A stretch of DNA of 64,000 bases, from assembly GCA_013215655.1 (NCBI GenBank), contig JABSOX010000012.1, forward strand, positions 65,608-129,607, written 5' to 3'. This document shows positions 3,952-11,719 of this stretch, one piece after another. Position numbers and translations under genes: made by a program. Every line of letters begins with the position of its first letter. Positions within the stretch are counted from its first letter, which is position 1. This DNA is from Colwellia sp. Its GTDB lineage: Bacteria; Pseudomonadota; Gammaproteobacteria; Enterobacterales; Alteromonadaceae. Under the pieces are notes generated by a model. The model had not been told where the DNA came from and searched no databases. It worked only from the letters and a program-made list of their open reading frames with translations.

Positions 3952-4234
3952 ATTGACCAGTTTAGTGACTAATGTGAACCTATGTCAAGCAAAGTTTCGA
4001 AAAATCGATCTGGCTGAAGGTCAATAAAATTGAGGTCTTTAAGGAAGTTTATGAATTTGTGGGGTTTTGTGGATCTCGAGCCCAATTAATTAGAAATAAT
4101 TCGTCTAAAAAGTCGTTTTTAGCGAAAAAATAGACTATGCCTATGGATAAAGTGGTTGGTCATCCCAAGCCGAATCGATTTTTCATATGTGCTGCTTTTT
4201 AAAACATTCATGGAGTAAATAAATTTGGTAAAAA

Positions 4235-5110
4235 TCAAATTTTAATACCAACCATACCAATAATGAGTAACCAAAAAGCAAAAAATAGTTTTAGTCGAGT
4301 TGCCGATAAATAGCCGACTAAGGTTTTAGCAAATATTCCGCCTAATACGGCACCGGGTCCGGCAAATATAACCACCTGCCAATAAACTTGGAAATCCACC
4401 GCTGTATGCTGCCAAATTCCTGCCCATATCGTTATTGCCGAAACGATCACCGCAGCAGATACCGCCATGCTGATATCAAATCGTCTTAAAATAAGATATA
4501 TCGCCAATAATTCACCGACACCAACGGATAACCATGCCGTTAATGCGCCACCAAAAATGCCTATTGCTGATAAAACTAAGCCATCAAAAAGATAAAGCTG
4601 ACTACGTTCGCGGTGCGGCTTTAAAAAATAAACCGTTATTACAATGAACATCCCCAGTAATAACGAAAACCAGTTAAAACTTTGATGCAAACTCGACGGT
4701 GATGGAATATCAAAACCATAAACTAGCCAAAGACCAATAACCGAAGCAATACTGGTAATCGCAATAATCCGTTTAAAGCCCTGCCACAAACGTAGTTCCG
4801 TTTTTTGCGCTTGATAATGACTCCACCATGTTATGGCTCCAGCGGTCATGCCAAAACATTGAATAGCAAAACTAGTTGCTATCGATTGCTTATCCGTAAA
4901 TCCTAATTCATTAAACATTGGAATGAAAACAACACCACCACCCGCGCCAGTAGAATTGGCAAAGATAGCGCCTAAGATACCTAATAAGCTAAATAAAATG
5001 TAATCAAGCAATTCAGCTAAAGACGCAGGGGCAAGATATAACAATAAAAACCAACAAATTATAAACGACGATATAAAATATAGATTTGAGAGACGGATAG
5101 GGTTATTCAT
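4235..5110 (-). CDS. TauE/SafE family sulfite exporter / permease
   Basis: 291 aa multi-TM protein with NSTGAGGGVVFIPMF and GPGAVLGGIFA motifs. Confidence 0.85.
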   Translation of the reverse strand: MNNPIRLSNLYFISSFIICWFLLLYLAPASLAELLDYILFSLLGILGAIFANSTGAGGGVVFIPMFNELGFTDKQSIATSFAIQCFGMTAGAITWWSHYQAQKTELRLWQGFKRIIAITSIASVIGLWLVYGFDIPSPSSLHQSFNWFSLLLGMFIVITVYFLKPHRERSQLYLFDGLVLSAIGIFGGALTAWLSVGVGELLAIYLILRRFDISMAVSAAVIVSAITIWAGIWQHTAVDFQVYWQVVIFAGPGAVLGGIFAKTLVGYLSATRLKLFFAFWLLIIGMVGIKI

Positions 5111-5127
5111 TAAGATGGTATCTTTAT

Positions 5128-5601
5128 TTAGTGCTTTGTCGCCAAAAATTGTTGTGCATCGCTTGAGATACAGGCATTGGAAATATAATTTTTACCTGTT
5201 GTATGAGTAATTAACCAACCTTTATCCGTAGACTTAAGCTCGGTAATGTTTTCCCATAAAATATCAAGATTCACATAATAAGACTCAGTAGAAATACCTT
5301 GTTCATTAATGGTTAGTTTTACTTCGCCTTTAGCTGACTTACCCAGCATTTGACGCATTACCCACCATGGTTTCTGATAATAAACACTTAACGCTTCTAA
5401 AATTCCCAAAGCAAAAACAAACCAAGCCGCATAAGCATTAATTTCAGTGAAGAGTACTAACACCATACCAAACAAAGTTAAAATAATAGCTTTAAGGTAT
5501 GCTTTTACGGAATAATCACTACCAACAGATTGACTATGACATTCATTAAAATGCGCTTTATCTAAGGTAAACTGGCTAACGTAAGATACGGATTCATTCA
5601 T
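5128..5601 (-). CDS. YcxB-like membrane protein
   Basis: 157 aa with two TM segments then a C-terminal PH-like region (EVKLTINEQGISTESYYVNLDILWENITEL). Confidence 0.5.
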   Translation of the reverse strand: MNESVSYVSQFTLDKAHFNECHSQSVGSDYSVKAYLKAIILTLFGMVLVLFTEINAYAAWFVFALGILEALSVYYQKPWWVMRQMLGKSAKGEVKLTINEQGISTESYYVNLDILWENITELKSTDKGWLITHTTGKNYISNACISSDAQQFLATKH

Positions 5602-5735
5602 GTGATGATTAAATATTGATGTACTAGAATACTTGCACGCTAGTGTAACGATTAGTCTTTATTGAAGATAGCACTATCTTTCAATATTCAAGCCAGTAAA
5701 ACACCATCATATTAACAAATAACATAAGCCCATGA

Positions 5736-6044
5736 TCAAGCGCTTTGCATAACACATTGTTCAATACTTAAATTTTCAATGCTCAAATGCGGTTCTCCTT
5801 CAAACTTGATTTGTGATAACCCCAAACGCTGGCAAAGTTTCATGAAAGTAGAATAATCTTCTTGATTCAATTTTTTATCATCTTTGGTCATTAAACCATC
5901 GATGTAGACACTGTCACCATTTATACATAAGTTAGCGATAGCATTATAAGGTTCTCCGTAACTATCAACTCGAATCGCGCGAACACTTTTTAACTCAAAT
6001 ATCCAATCATCTACTTCTACATATCTTAATATAGTATCACTCAT
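5736..6044 (-). CDS. Hypothetical protein (start at internal ATG preferred)
   Basis: ORF track starts at 6152, but ATG at 6044 (MSDTILRYVEVDDW) has an AAGGA-type RBS and avoids a predicted terminator inside the extension. Confidence 0.6.
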   Translation of the reverse strand: MSDTILRYVEVDDWIFELKSVRAIRVDSYGEPYNAIANLCINGDSVYIDGLMTKDDKKLNQEDYSTFMKLCQRLGLSQIKFEGEPHLSIENLSIEQCVMQSA

Positions 6045-6076
6045 GACAATGTCCTTAAGTTTGGGTTTATGTTTAC

Positions 6077-6118
6077 AAAAAAGGCCGATTGCAAAATAAT
6101 TTGGTTGGGGCAACCGGC
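6077..6118 (-). terminator. Intrinsic terminator downstream of the EF-hand gene
   Basis: Minus strand GCCGGTTGC...GCAATCGGC stem followed by CTTTTTT. Confidence 0.65.
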
Positions 6119-6157
6119 ATAAAGGGAATAGATTGACTTCCCAAAAGAGCAAATACG

Positions 6158-6529
6158 TTATTTATTCAGTTTGATCTTATTAGTAAAAGCAACAAACTCT
6201 TGTTCACTAATATTATCGTCAGTATTAATATCTAATTTATTAAACGCGATATGTAAGGCTTGATTGTTACTTGCTTTGAGTTCGCTCTGACTTAATAAGC
6301 CATTATTGTCTGTATCAAATTGAGCAGTAAGTTGAGAAAATTTAATTTGCTTCTTCATTGGTTTATTAGCTTGTTTAGCTTTTTGCTTAGCGGCCTGTTT
6401 AGTGACGACAACATCCTTTACTTGCACTGTAGTAGCAATATCATCACTGGCACTCACCAGTAAGGTTGTAAAGGTGGCCGCAATAACAACCAGTGAAATT
6501 TTAGTTAATCTTAAATTATTCATATCCAT
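6158..6529 (-). CDS. Secreted/periplasmic EF-hand domain protein
   Basis: Signal peptide-like N-terminus; two EF-hand loops (FDTDNNGLLSQSEL, LDINTDDNISEQEF). Confidence 0.8.
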   Translation of the reverse strand: MDMNNLRLTKISLVVIAATFTTLLVSASDDIATTVQVKDVVVTKQAAKQKAKQANKPMKKQIKFSQLTAQFDTDNNGLLSQSELKASNNQALHIAFNKLDINTDDNISEQEFVAFTNKIKLNK

Positions 6530-6576
6530 TCCTTTTCTTAATTTGTTTTTGGTTTTTTGATGTTCAACTCAGGTGT

Positions 6577-6592
6577 TGCACAAGCCATACCA
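6577..6592 (-). promoter_or_regulatory. Candidate sigma54 (-24/-12) promoter for the EF-hand gene
   Basis: Minus strand TGGTATGGCTTGTGCA; GG and GC separated by exactly 10 nt, about 48 nt before the start codon. Confidence 0.6.
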
Positions 6593-6644
6593 AAATGTAA
6601 CTTATTGATATTTATAAATAATATACAAACCACACCTTAACTCG

Positions 6645-6662
6645 TGTCGCCATTTAGCGACA
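6645..6662. promoter_or_regulatory. GlrR (QseF)-type binding site 1
   Basis: TGTCGCCATTTAGCGACA = exact TGTC-N10-GACA. Confidence 0.7.
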
Positions 6663-6765
6663 AGTATAAATAATTTGATTAATTAAAAAGAAAAAAACAT
6701 CGAGACTTTACATAAAAACACCTTAAAATCAAAGACTAACAAATAACAATAACGTTAAGTAAAAA

Positions 6766-6783
6766 TGTCGCCACTTTGAGACA
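6766..6783. promoter_or_regulatory. GlrR (QseF)-type binding site 2
   Basis: TGTCGCCACTTTGAGACA = exact TGTC-N10-GACA. Confidence 0.7.
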
Positions 6784-6857
6784 CCCTTATCTTTTCCCTA
6801 AATATCACTTAAAATACAACTTCAATTTCTCCGTAATGTTAACCATGGTAATCACCT

Positions 6858-8372
6858 GTGCAAAGCTCAAATTATATTACAAACGTCATTGTTAAGAGTT
6901 TTACAAAGATAGAAACAATATCTATAAAGAAGCTCACCCCTCTTGGCTTTGCTTTAGTTGCACTGCCGCTGGTGATTGCACTTATTTATGCGGCAATACA
7001 AGTTAATCAATTAGCTAAAAATAGTGAAGGTGCAATAAGGGATACCGCAAAAATCACTGAAAACATCGGGGAGTTAAGGGCGACTTTATCTAAAATGGAA
7101 AGATATGCCAGCCAATACATAGTGCTTAATGATCCTGAATTAATTAATAGTTACCTCCAGCAAGAACAAGTAATAATAAGCTCACTTGATAACAACTTAA
7201 TCACTCATCAGGATACTTTACTCAGTAAAAATAGCGATGAACTTAAACAAGCATTAATTACCTTACAGCAACAATTGTTACCCAACCCATCTAAAAAAAA
7301 TGCAGAACTGTCTTTAACCGAATTACAGCGTGAATTTAGCAATCTGGTTAACATCAGTCAAAAGATTACTCGCCGTAGTAATACCTTAATTTCGTTACAA
7401 GTAAACCACATCAGGGCTTCAGCAATAGCACTTAGTCAAACGATGTTAAATAGCTTGATGATCATTCCTGTCACTATAGCCATTGCGTTTTATTTTATCT
7501 TTATTATTGCTAAGCCACTTAAGAAATTAACGGCAAAAATCCAACAATTTGAACACGGAAATTTTGAACAAACCATCACACTACGCAGCTCCCCTGAAAT
7601 AAATGAAATAGTTGATGCGTTAGAAGTTATGCGTACACGCTTGCACGCGCTAGAATTACAAAAATCGAGTTTTATTCGACATATATCTCATGAATTAAAA
7701 ACCCCATTAGCAGCAATACGCGAAGGTACAGAATTACTGTATGACAACAGTGTTGGTGAATTAAATGATCAACAACAAGAAATCAGTCTCATTATCAGAA
7801 CCAGCGTTACACGTTTACAACGCCTTATTGAAGATTTGCTTAATTTCAATATTGTTTTAGATTCCACCAGCTTACAAGATTCCATCGCAATAAATGTGAA
7901 CGCTGTGCTTGAAAGTGTTTTGCTTGCTCAAAAACTTGATATTAAACGTAAACATCTTGTTATTAATAACTCACCCGTTGATATACAAGTGCAAAGTAAC
8001 GAAAAGCAGCTCAATGTCATCTTGGACAATCTCGTATCAAATGCAATCAAGTATTCACCGGACCACGGAGAAATCACCATTGATTGCAAATTAATAGGTG
8101 AACATTTAGCAATCAGTGTCATTGATCAAGGGTCAGGCATTGAAGTGACTCAACAAGAGCGAATATTTGATGCTTTTTATCAAGGGTCACCACCACAAGA
8201 TAGTCATATAAAAAGCAGTGGCTTAGGCTTAACCATCGTAAAGGAATTATTGATGAGAATTAATGGCACAATACAAATACAAAGTAAGACATCTGAAATT
8301 TCTGGTACACAAGTAACCATCATTCTACCTAAAGCACAGTACATAAATAAACAACAGACAGGAAAAAGATAA
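6858..8372 (+). CDS. glrK: Sensor histidine kinase GlrK/QseE
   Basis: HAMP, HisKA (FIRHISHELKTPLAAIREG), HATPase (GSGIEVTQQERIFDAFYQG); followed by qseG-like and glrR-like genes. GTG start as given by the ORF track is uncertain. Confidence 0.88.
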   Translation: MQSSNYITNVIVKSFTKIETISIKKLTPLGFALVALPLVIALIYAAIQVNQLAKNSEGAIRDTAKITENIGELRATLSKMERYASQYIVLNDPELINSYLQQEQVIISSLDNNLITHQDTLLSKNSDELKQALITLQQQLLPNPSKKNAELSLTELQREFSNLVNISQKITRRSNTLISLQVNHIRASAIALSQTMLNSLMIIPVTIAIAFYFIFIIAKPLKKLTAKIQQFEHGNFEQTITLRSSPEINEIVDALEVMRTRLHALELQKSSFIRHISHELKTPLAAIREGTELLYDNSVGELNDQQQEISLIIRTSVTRLQRLIEDLLNFNIVLDSTSLQDSIAINVNAVLESVLLAQKLDIKRKHLVINNSPVDIQVQSNEKQLNVILDNLVSNAIKYSPDHGEITIDCKLIGEHLAISVIDQGSGIEVTQQERIFDAFYQGSPPQDSHIKSSGLGLTIVKELLMRINGTIQIQSKTSEISGTQVTIILPKAQYINKQQTGKR

Positions 8373-8926
8373 TGAGTACTTTAATCATTGTTAGAAAAAC
8401 CATCTTACATATCTCTTTGTTGATTTTTTTGTCACTCAATACTGGCTGCCAATTACTTAACCAAACAACAATGATAACAGCAAGCTACGGTCAATATTAT
8501 CTTTGGCTTAAAAGTCTCAATCTAGAAGAATTACAACAAGAAATTGTACAACAGAAATATAATCTAACGGAAATAAATAGCGATGCAGAGCTCTATTTAT
8601 TATTAATACATGCCTTGCCTAACTCACCTATTCATAACCCTTATACTGCCAAGGCTTTATTAAATGTTTTCCAATTGCAATATGTGAGCACCCGTTATAA
8701 TTCTGAGAATTTGGCATTTATTACTATGCTAAGAGATCAATTAAATGAACAATTACTGATCTTAGAAAAACTCAATAAGGCATCAAAAATCAACGAAGAA
8801 AATCAAATAATTCAAGCTTCACTACATAAAGAAAACGTTCAACTCCAACAAGACATAGAGCGATTAACCCAACAAATTATTCAACTCAAAAAAATAGAAC
8901 AAACCATTAATAATCACGGGCAATAG
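8372..8926 (+). CDS. qseG: QseG/YfhG-like lipoprotein
   Basis: Lipobox LSLNTGC, coiled-coil C-terminus, located between glrK and glrR. Confidence 0.7.
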   Translation: MSTLIIVRKTILHISLLIFLSLNTGCQLLNQTTMITASYGQYYLWLKSLNLEELQQEIVQQKYNLTEINSDAELYLLLIHALPNSPIHNPYTAKALLNVFQLQYVSTRYNSENLAFITMLRDQLNEQLLILEKLNKASKINEENQIIQASLHKENVQLQQDIERLTQQIIQLKKIEQTINNHGQ

Positions 8927-8931
8927 TAATA

Positions 8932-10311
8932 ATGAAACAAACAGTAACTGAACAACGTAATGAAGTGATTAAAAATAAAATTTTAATTGTTGATGATGAT
9001 CCAAATTTATTACGTTTACTTGGTATTCGACTGTCTGCTGCTGGTTATGATGTTGAATCAGCTGCCAATGCCAAAATAGCTTTGGGAAAACTTGAAAGTT
9101 TTCATCCTCAATTGGTGGTCAGCGATCTAAAAATGGAAGGTATGGACGGTATGGCACTTTTTGAACAGATCAGGCAACGCCATGCAAATATGCCCGTTAT
9201 CATTATGACCGCCCACGGTACTATTCCTGATGCTATTAATGCCACTAAGCAAGGAGTATTTAGCTTTTTGACCAAGCCCTTTGAAAGCAAGGAACTGCTA
9301 GATACAGTTCAGCAAGCCATACGTTTACAGCCAAACGAAGAACGTCATGATAAAGAAGAAAATAGCTGGCGTGCAAAAATCATTAGTCGTAGTGCAGTCA
9401 TGGAGACTTTACTACAGCAAACTAAACAAGTTGCCAATAGTGATTTTAGTTTATTAATTCATAGCCAAAGTGGTACGGGTAAAGAGTTATTAGCAACGGC
9501 TATTCATCAAGCAAGTAAAAGACGTGATAAATCATTCACTGCAATTAATTGTGCTGCAATACCAGAGCAGTTACTAGAGTCTGAATTATTTGGTCACTGT
9601 AAAGGCGCTTTTACTGGCGCTGAAAAAAAACATATTGGCTTATTTCAAGCAAGTTGTGGTGGCACATTATTTCTTGATGAAATTGGCGATATGCCAATGA
9701 GCTTTCAAGTTAAATTATTAAGGGCGTTACAAGAAAAAGAAATAAGACCACTAGGTAGCACTCAAACAATTAAAGTTGATGTTCGGATCATTGCCGCCAC
9801 CCATAAAAATTTGCAACAAGCGATTATAGATAAAACCTTTCGTGAAGATCTTTATTATCGCTTAAATGTTGTTGAGCTTGAATTACCCCCACTATCTGAA
9901 CGCCGAGAAGATATTCCATTACTTGCCCAATATTTTTTGTCAAAAATTAACAAAAATTCAGAGAGTGCCATCAATGGATTTTCTCAGCAAGCGATGGAGT
10001 TATTAATCAGCGCGCCGTGGCCGGGAAATATTCGTCAATTACAAAACGTCGTAGAACAAAGTGTTGCGCTTTCTACAGAGTCATTAATAAGTGAAACACT
10101 GATCAAAAATGCGTTACGCGATAAAACGACTATTTTACCTTCGTTTCAACAGGCACGAGATAAATTTGAACGTGATTATTTAGCCAAACTATTAAGGATA
10201 ACAGCCGGTAATGTTTCGCAAGCAGCTCGTATTGCCCAGCGTAATCGCACTGAGTTTTACAAGCTGCTTAACCGCCATCATTTAACAGCGGAAGCTTTTC
10301 GTGATGACTAG
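8932..10311 (+). CDS. glrR: Sigma54-dependent response regulator GlrR/QseF
   Basis: REC domain, AAA+ with ELFGHCKGAFTGAEKKH (GAFTGA), Fis-type HTH. Confidence 0.92.
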   Translation: MKQTVTEQRNEVIKNKILIVDDDPNLLRLLGIRLSAAGYDVESAANAKIALGKLESFHPQLVVSDLKMEGMDGMALFEQIRQRHANMPVIIMTAHGTIPDAINATKQGVFSFLTKPFESKELLDTVQQAIRLQPNEERHDKEENSWRAKIISRSAVMETLLQQTKQVANSDFSLLIHSQSGTGKELLATAIHQASKRRDKSFTAINCAAIPEQLLESELFGHCKGAFTGAEKKHIGLFQASCGGTLFLDEIGDMPMSFQVKLLRALQEKEIRPLGSTQTIKVDVRIIAATHKNLQQAIIDKTFREDLYYRLNVVELELPPLSERREDIPLLAQYFLSKINKNSESAINGFSQQAMELLISAPWPGNIRQLQNVVEQSVALSTESLISETLIKNALRDKTTILPSFQQARDKFERDYLAKLLRITAGNVSQAARIAQRNRTEFYKLLNRHHLTAEAFRDD

Positions 10312-10337
10312 CAAGCAATCCAATTAAAAAGAAAGCT

Positions 10338-10814
10338 CTATTCGTTAATCGCTAACAATTCCACATCAAAAATAAGTAAAGAACCTGGTGCTATTTTTCC
10401 TGAAGCTCTATTACCGTAACCTAAGTTAGCTGGAATGAAAAAACGTGTTTTATCGCCAACAACCATAAGTTGCACACCTTCTGTCCAACCTTTTATTACT
10501 TGGTTTAAGCCAAAACTTATCGGTTGATTACGTTCAACCGAACTATCAAAGACGGTGTCATCAAGTAATGTACCGTGATAATGCACTTTTACTTTATCTG
10601 TAGCATTAGGATGTTCGCTACCAGAGCCCGCAGTTAATACTTTATATTGAAGTCCTGATGATGTTTCGATCACTCCTTCTACATTCTTATTCTCTGCCAA
10701 AAAGGTCAGTCCCTTTTGAATGTTCTCTTTTGCCACTTCTTTATTATTATTGGAATTAATAAAATAATACGCTGCTAGCGCAAATATAACGGCTAATACA
10801 ATAAATTTACTCAC
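10338..10814 (-). CDS. FKBP-type peptidyl-prolyl cis-trans isomerase
   Basis: VKVHYHGTLLDDTVFDSS...FGLNQVIKGWTEGVQLM. Confidence 0.93.
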   Translation of the reverse strand: MSKFIVLAVIFALAAYYFINSNNNKEVAKENIQKGLTFLAENKNVEGVIETSSGLQYKVLTAGSGSEHPNATDKVKVHYHGTLLDDTVFDSSVERNQPISFGLNQVIKGWTEGVQLMVVGDKTRFFIPANLGYGNRASGKIAPGSLLIFDVELLAINE

Positions 10815-11719
10815 TAAATATTCTCTTTACTTAAACTAGAAACAATATGTATGTCTCTTTGTGGAAACGGTATTTTAATTTTTTCTTGCTCTAGTGCAAC
10901 ATATATCGCTTCATAAGCTTTATATTTAGCGGCATACAAGCTAATTGTTGGTGTCCATAATCTTATGGCTATATTAATTGAACTATCAGCAAAAGCATCA
11001 ATACCAACCATCGGCTCTCTAATATCACTAACAATATCAAGTTCGCCTATCACCTTTTTTAATAGTTCAACCACTTCAATGGGATTATGTTGATAATCAA
11101 TACCTACGGTTAACTCAAGTAATGAGTCATTTTTTGAATTAAGTAATATTTCGCCAACAATATGTTTATTTGGAATGGTGATTTCAACGTTGTCTTCATC
11201 ACTTAAAATGGTGTAAGCGAGTAGAACTTCTTTAACAATCCCAGTTACCCCGTCAACAGTTATAGTATCGCCTACGACAAAAGGACGTATGATAATAATG
11301 TTAAAACCCGCCGCGTAGTTAGCAAGTAAACCTTGCAAAGCTAAGCCTGCACCTAAAGAAATAGCACCAATTGCGGCGATAAAGGGTGTAACACTGATAC
11401 CTAGTTTTCCTAAAGAAATAATGGTGATCATAATAACAATCAACATTTTTGTGGTATTCGCCAAGAAACGACTCAAGGTAATATCAAGCTTATTTCTTTC
11501 ACATAAACGTAGAACTAAGCCTGAGATTTTTCCGGCAAAAACATAACCGATAATGAAGATAATAAAGGCACCAACCAATTGAAAACTATAGTTGGTAAAA
11601 AATTCAATCAAGACATCATAAAATTGACTAACCTGATCAATTTCATCTTTTAACAAATCAATAGGAACAAGTTCACTGATTGTTTCACTAGTAGATTTTT
11701 CTGTAGCTGTTTCAGACAT
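10814..11719 (-). CDS. Small-conductance mechanosensitive channel (MscS family)
   Basis: MscS core: AIGAISLGAGLALQGLLANYAAGFNIIIIRPFVVGDTI. Confidence 0.93.
   Translation of the reverse strand: MSETATEKSTSETISELVPIDLLKDEIDQVSQFYDVLIEFFTNYSFQLVGAFIIFIIGYVFAGKISGLVLRLCERNKLDITLSRFLANTTKMLIVIMITIISLGKLGISVTPFIAAIGAISLGAGLALQGLLANYAAGFNIIIIRPFVVGDTITVDGVTGIVKEVLLAYTILSDEDNVEITIPNKHIVGEILLNSKNDSLLELTVGIDYQHNPIEVVELLKKVIGELDIVSDIREPMVGIDAFADSSINIAIRLWTPTISLYAAKYKAYEAIYVALEQEKIKIPFPQRDIHIVSSLSKENI

Follow-up and report, generated by a model that had tools for sequence, protein, structure and literature searches.

The glrK-qseG-glrR locus and its divergent neighbour

The window, a stretch of 64,000 nt from Colwellia sp. 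(assembly GCA_013215655.1, contig JABSOX010000012.1, positions 65,608-129,607 of the forward strand), contains a two-component locus of the GlrKR/QseEF type and, divergent from it, a minus-strand gene cluster (Table 1). The regulator has the receiver, sigma54-activation and HTH regions of GlrR: the Pfam domains Response_reg, Sigma54_activat and AAA-lid were matched, and the C-terminal HTH region aligns with that of E. coli GlrR. The two proteins are 55% identical, and the HTH segment RNRTEFYKLL is unchanged. Among all NCBIfam models the GlrR equivalog scores best, though at 617.8 bits it stays below its cutoff of 763 bits, and the protein is therefore named GlrR-type, its orthology being judged from the best hit and the gene order. 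The order of kinase, small exported protein and regulator is that of GlrR loci. The ORF in the qseG position gave no match in Pfam and NCBIfam searches. In enteric bacteria, GlrKR is known chiefly as a switch for GlmY and rpoE.

The first gene of the minus-strand cluster encodes a small EF-hand protein. Its ORF reaches 6529, corresponding to 123 aa; Met3 was preferred as the start because AAGGA lies 6 nt before it and because it aligns with the starts of relatives. The protein exceeds the Pfam EF-hand_1 cutoff (30.9 against 25.4 bits) and carries the canonical D..D..E ligands; it would be a protein of calcium-binding type. The ligand residues D72, E83, D100 and E111 are unchanged over 23 diverged EF-hand copies. 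In the predicted structure, residues 61-120 form an EF-hand pair with pLDDT mostly above 90, and the N-terminal part is uncertain; the best structural matches are calmodulin-like but weak, with E-values of about 0.01-0.04. The signal peptide and the transcript terminator were called by eye, and in a separate scan of the terminator region the sole stem reported was a nested, weaker one at 6103-6115.

Table 1. Genes and predicted regulatory features around the glrK-proximal intergenic region (window coordinates)
Feature	Position	Strand	Remarks
DWIFE protein gene	5736..6044	-	next downstream of EF-hand gene; second in minus-strand cluster
Candidate terminator of EF-hand transcript	6076..6118	-	GCCGGTTGC...GCAATCGGC then CTTTTTT; from sequence
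EF-hand gene	6158..6523	-	121 aa from preferred start; signal-peptide-like N-terminus, two EF-hands
EF-hand loop 2	6197..6232	-	DINTDDNISEQE; D100, E111 invariant in alignment
EF-hand loop 1	6281..6316	-	DTDNNGLLSQSE; D72, E83 invariant in alignment
Shine-Dalgarno-like AAGGA	6530..6534	-	ahead of ATG 6523-6521; from sequence
Sigma54 -24/-12 element (predicted)	6577..6592	-	TGGTATGGCTTGTGCA; such an element in 39/39 loci
IHF-like site	6598..6610	-	TATCAATAAGTTA (exact WATCAANNNNTTR); 5 bp before -24 element
Proximal GlrR operator (predicted)	6645..6662		TGTCGCCATTTAGCGACA; exact TGTC-N10-GACA
Distal GlrR operator (predicted)	6766..6783		TGTCGCCACTTTGAGACA; exact TGTC-N10-GACA, 121 bp beyond proximal
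glrK-like sensor kinase gene	6858..8372	+	HAMP, HisKA, HATPase; start approximate
Small ORF in qseG position	8372..8926	+	no family match
GlrR-type response regulator / sigma54 activator gene	8932..10311	+	best NCBIfam model = GlrR

Predicted GlrR operators and sigma54 promoter

Two exact TGTC-N10-GACA palindromes had been reported upstream of glrK in a preliminary description; their coordinates were right, and they are the sole matches in the 64 kb. Both have the form and the position of a GlrR operator, that is TGTC-N10-GACA upstream of a sigma54 promoter; the paper defining this operator is reportedly that of Gopel in 2011. The palindrome count alone is weak evidence. Shuffled windows contained a mean of 0.59 matches, with at least two in 11 of 100 shuffles, and the whole genome holds 39 matches compared to 33 for a reversed control pattern, which is barely an enrichment. 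Two palindromes being unremarkable by count, conservation was used as evidence instead and carries the case. Past the core, the proximal site agrees with the E. coli glmY sites, TGTCTGTAAATCACGACA, TGTCGCTTTCTGGCGACA and TGTCTCTTTTTAGCGACA in the MG1655 sequence, sharing TGTCGC-N6-GCGACA.

The -24/-12 element described earlier on the minus strand is present, with TTTTGGTATGGCTTGTGCAACA giving GG-N10-GC within TGGYAYG-N4-KTGCW, the pattern of a sigma54 promoter, and RpoN dependence is predicted. The operators do lie upstream of this element, at recomputed distances of 52 and 173 bp instead of 53 and 174 bp. Likewise, the element precedes the EF-hand gene as described, by 53 nt rather than about 48 nt when Met3 is taken as the start. 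The exact IHF consensus was found in 16 of 39 upstream regions (the window and 38 relatives) compared to 1.5 in shuffled regions, the shuffling being approximate, and IHF-like sites mostly lie 5-7 bp ahead of the -24 box.

The whole genome was also searched for the combined pattern of site plus promoter, which returned the EF-hand locus and three others; the reversed control also returned three. With wider spacing, two matches were obtained, both degenerate. A wider GlrR regulon was sought among 16 inspected loci with exact palindromes and rejected, as most of these were intragenic and lacked a -24/-12 element on the right side. No second convincing GlrR target was found by these pattern searches of the whole genome.

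Conservation among relatives and competing explanations

Regions upstream of glrR were sampled from 80 family genomes, with a closer group of 38 loci from 14 genera (L053-L090). The search of these 38 relatives required GG-N10-GC and allowed at most one operator mismatch, leaving position and phasing free. A divergent EF-hand ORF with one or two loops beside glrK, a -24/-12 element and one or two operators upstream were found in all 38, counts that are non-independent trials given that the genomes are related. Between the proximal operator and the -24 box there are 51-53, 63-65 or 73-75 bp, corresponding to roughly whole helical turns, and the two operators are 119-122 bp apart in most loci and 111, 133 or 141-142 bp apart in a few. 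The 39 upstream regions (10,140 bp) contain 36 exact palindromes, compared to 0-1 for each of 11 permuted palindromes, and a proximal operator at the right distance was found in 36/39 regions versus 0-2/39 in shuffled regions. The preliminary description had named loss of the operators and the GG/GC element in related genomes as a refuting outcome; its reading passes this test, with operators, -24/-12 element and EF-hand gene kept together across the 14 genera. One member of the genus (G003) is without glrR and without the EF-hand gene alike. Tandem copies of the EF-hand gene adjoin glrK in five loci, L057 (G087), L065 (G050), L070, L076 and L078.

The co-conservation with helical phasing, the glmY-type sites and the same HTH segment support the proposal that the divergent EF-hand gene is the target of the GlrR operators and the sigma54 promoter. 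Judged from the DNA, a GlrKR-controlled sigma54 promoter very probably drives expression of this small exported protein.

The same promoter might instead control an EF-hand and DWIFE operon of which DWIFE is the main functional output. In many relatives the DWIFE gene comes next after the EF-hand gene, and in L134 and L135 it lies directly at the GlrR/sigma54 promoter. We nevertheless consider this arrangement unlikely, given the candidate terminator between the two genes in the window and the 14 of 38 relatives in whose fetched stretch the DWIFE motif was not found.

Autoregulation of glrK was also considered, in which case the operators would serve glrK, the EF-hand gene would have an ordinary sigma70 promoter and the -24/-12 match would be incidental. 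The operators are intergenic, preceding the annotated start of glrK by 213 and 92 bp, and could act on glrK too; in Proteus, one promoter is common to glmY and qseEGF (PMC8745638). This reading is very improbable: an element directed at the EF-hand gene was found in 39 of 39 loci, at phased distances from the operator, and a sigma70 scan gave matches no commoner than in shuffles, with none immediately before the EF-hand gene.

Proposed mechanism and comparison with known systems

For GlrKR control of the EF-hand gene, a mechanism can be proposed whose steps past the DNA sequence are drawn from E. coli GlrR/QseF work (PMC6075780). GlrK would phosphorylate GlrR, and GlrR~P would bind both operators upstream of the -24/-12 element; phosphorylation dependence and binding are both taken from known GlrR/sigma54 biology. 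Bending of the DNA, probably by IHF at the IHF-like site, would bring GlrR~P to the waiting sigma54-RNA polymerase, and the GlrR AAA+ domain would then open the promoter. The product would be a short EF-hand mRNA starting near 6565, with a probable end at the candidate terminator near 6080.

The arrangement resembles GlrKR/QseEF-glmY of Enterobacteriaceae in its GlrR orthologue, TGTC-N10-GACA operators, IHF-like site and -24/-12 promoter beside glrK. It differs in its output, a divergent exported EF-hand gene, and in having two operators about 121 bp apart, whereas enterobacteria have three operators and the sRNA GlmY is co-directional with glrK (PMC6075780). A second parallel is ZraSR, whose sigma54 activator acts on divergent promoters, one for the periplasmic zinc-binding ZraP and the other for the activator's own two-component system (PMC4987338). 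Both systems place a small exported protein of metal-binding type divergent from a two-component system with a sigma54 activator. The window, however, has GlrR in place of ZraR and an EF-hand fold in place of ZraP, and kinase feedback is a feature of ZraP; only EF-hand-type Pfam families, and not the ZraP family, match the window protein. CpxP-CpxAR likewise pairs a small periplasmic protein with its own divergent two-component system, but CpxR is not a sigma54 activator and CpxP is without an EF-hand.

By analogy to ZraP acting on ZraSR, it may be speculated that the EF-hand protein works with GlrK in the periplasm, as its Ca2+-dependent partner or as a regulator giving feedback, and feedback on GlrK is plausible on the same comparison. 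The envelope-stress or Ca2+ role suggested for GlrKR in the preliminary description is a conjectural physiological function. Among the papers searched, none describes a GlrR-driven EF-hand output and none mentions both GlrR and EF-hand.

Output genes in other lineages

The gene at the glrK-adjacent promoter varies by lineage, being GlmY, the EF-hand gene, a K/E-rich secreted protein or another gene. In enterobacterial-type loci there are three operators and the promoter is on the plus strand, consistent with GlmY. In Alteromonas-type loci (L106-L132), the EF-hand gene adjoins glrK in 24 of 27, and in 22 of these it shares the strand of glrK and takes the glmY position. Because the EF-hand gene is beside glrK in this group too, the EF-hand output may have replaced GlmY, in line with the earlier view of redirected control, or may have come first. 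A promoter-like TGGCAY-N7-TG[TA] is present in L106-L129, where TGT or TGA replaces the -12 TGC and the usual C is missing.

The interval from this sigma54-like promoter to the EF-hand gene holds a conserved structured RNA in L114, L239 (G123:C1:22219-22236), L106, L108, L110, L112, L113, L115, L119 and L120. Its hairpin has a CUGGUUCC loop, and pairing in the stem is kept through two-sided changes as checked by hand; RNAalifold missed the covarying hairpin owing to the alignment. The RNA ends near GGCARGGAWGCC, often with a U-run, and exact matches to its string TGYGATGGCGTTTGCAWC in 147 family genomes are upstream of glrR. It belongs to no Rfam family and is a candidate sRNA or leader in the GlmY position. 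Among known RNAs, the relatives' loci gave one weak STnc430 match, in L104, which was rejected as it falls under the gathering score.

That in the window GlrR drives a small RNA as GlmY counterpart, with the EF-hand ORF as passenger, is very improbable, even though GlmY holds this position in enterobacteria and Alteromonas-type relatives have their structured RNA there, since the window has just 53 nt from element to start codon, an Rfam search of 4000-11000 found neither GlmY nor any other match, the signature of the Alteromonas-type RNA is absent from the window genome, and the EF-hand ligand residues are invariant in diverged copies.

With the EF-hand gene retained as the output in the window, a broader model can be offered, tentatively and with less than even confidence. 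The glrK-adjacent promoter would be a conserved output slot whose cargo (GlmY, the other structured RNA, EF-hand, K/E-rich secreted protein, DWIFE gene) was swapped between lineages while operators and regulator were kept, and the EF-hand protein would be a Ca2+-dependent GlrK partner closing a feedback loop. If an exported EF-hand protein is under GlrKR control throughout Colwellia-like bacteria, the ancestral job of GlrKR may concern the envelope and ions, not amino-sugar control, and one regulator could be compared over lineages in which the operators were kept and the output changed. The EF-hand/GlrKR locus would also be a compact candidate for a signalling system linked to calcium in marine bacteria.

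Two further arrangements were seen. In L091, L092, L093 and L097, a small signal-peptide-bearing K/E/A-rich protein replaces the EF-hand protein behind the operators and the -24/-12 element, and in L107 a K/E-rich stretch is fused to the EF-hand pair.
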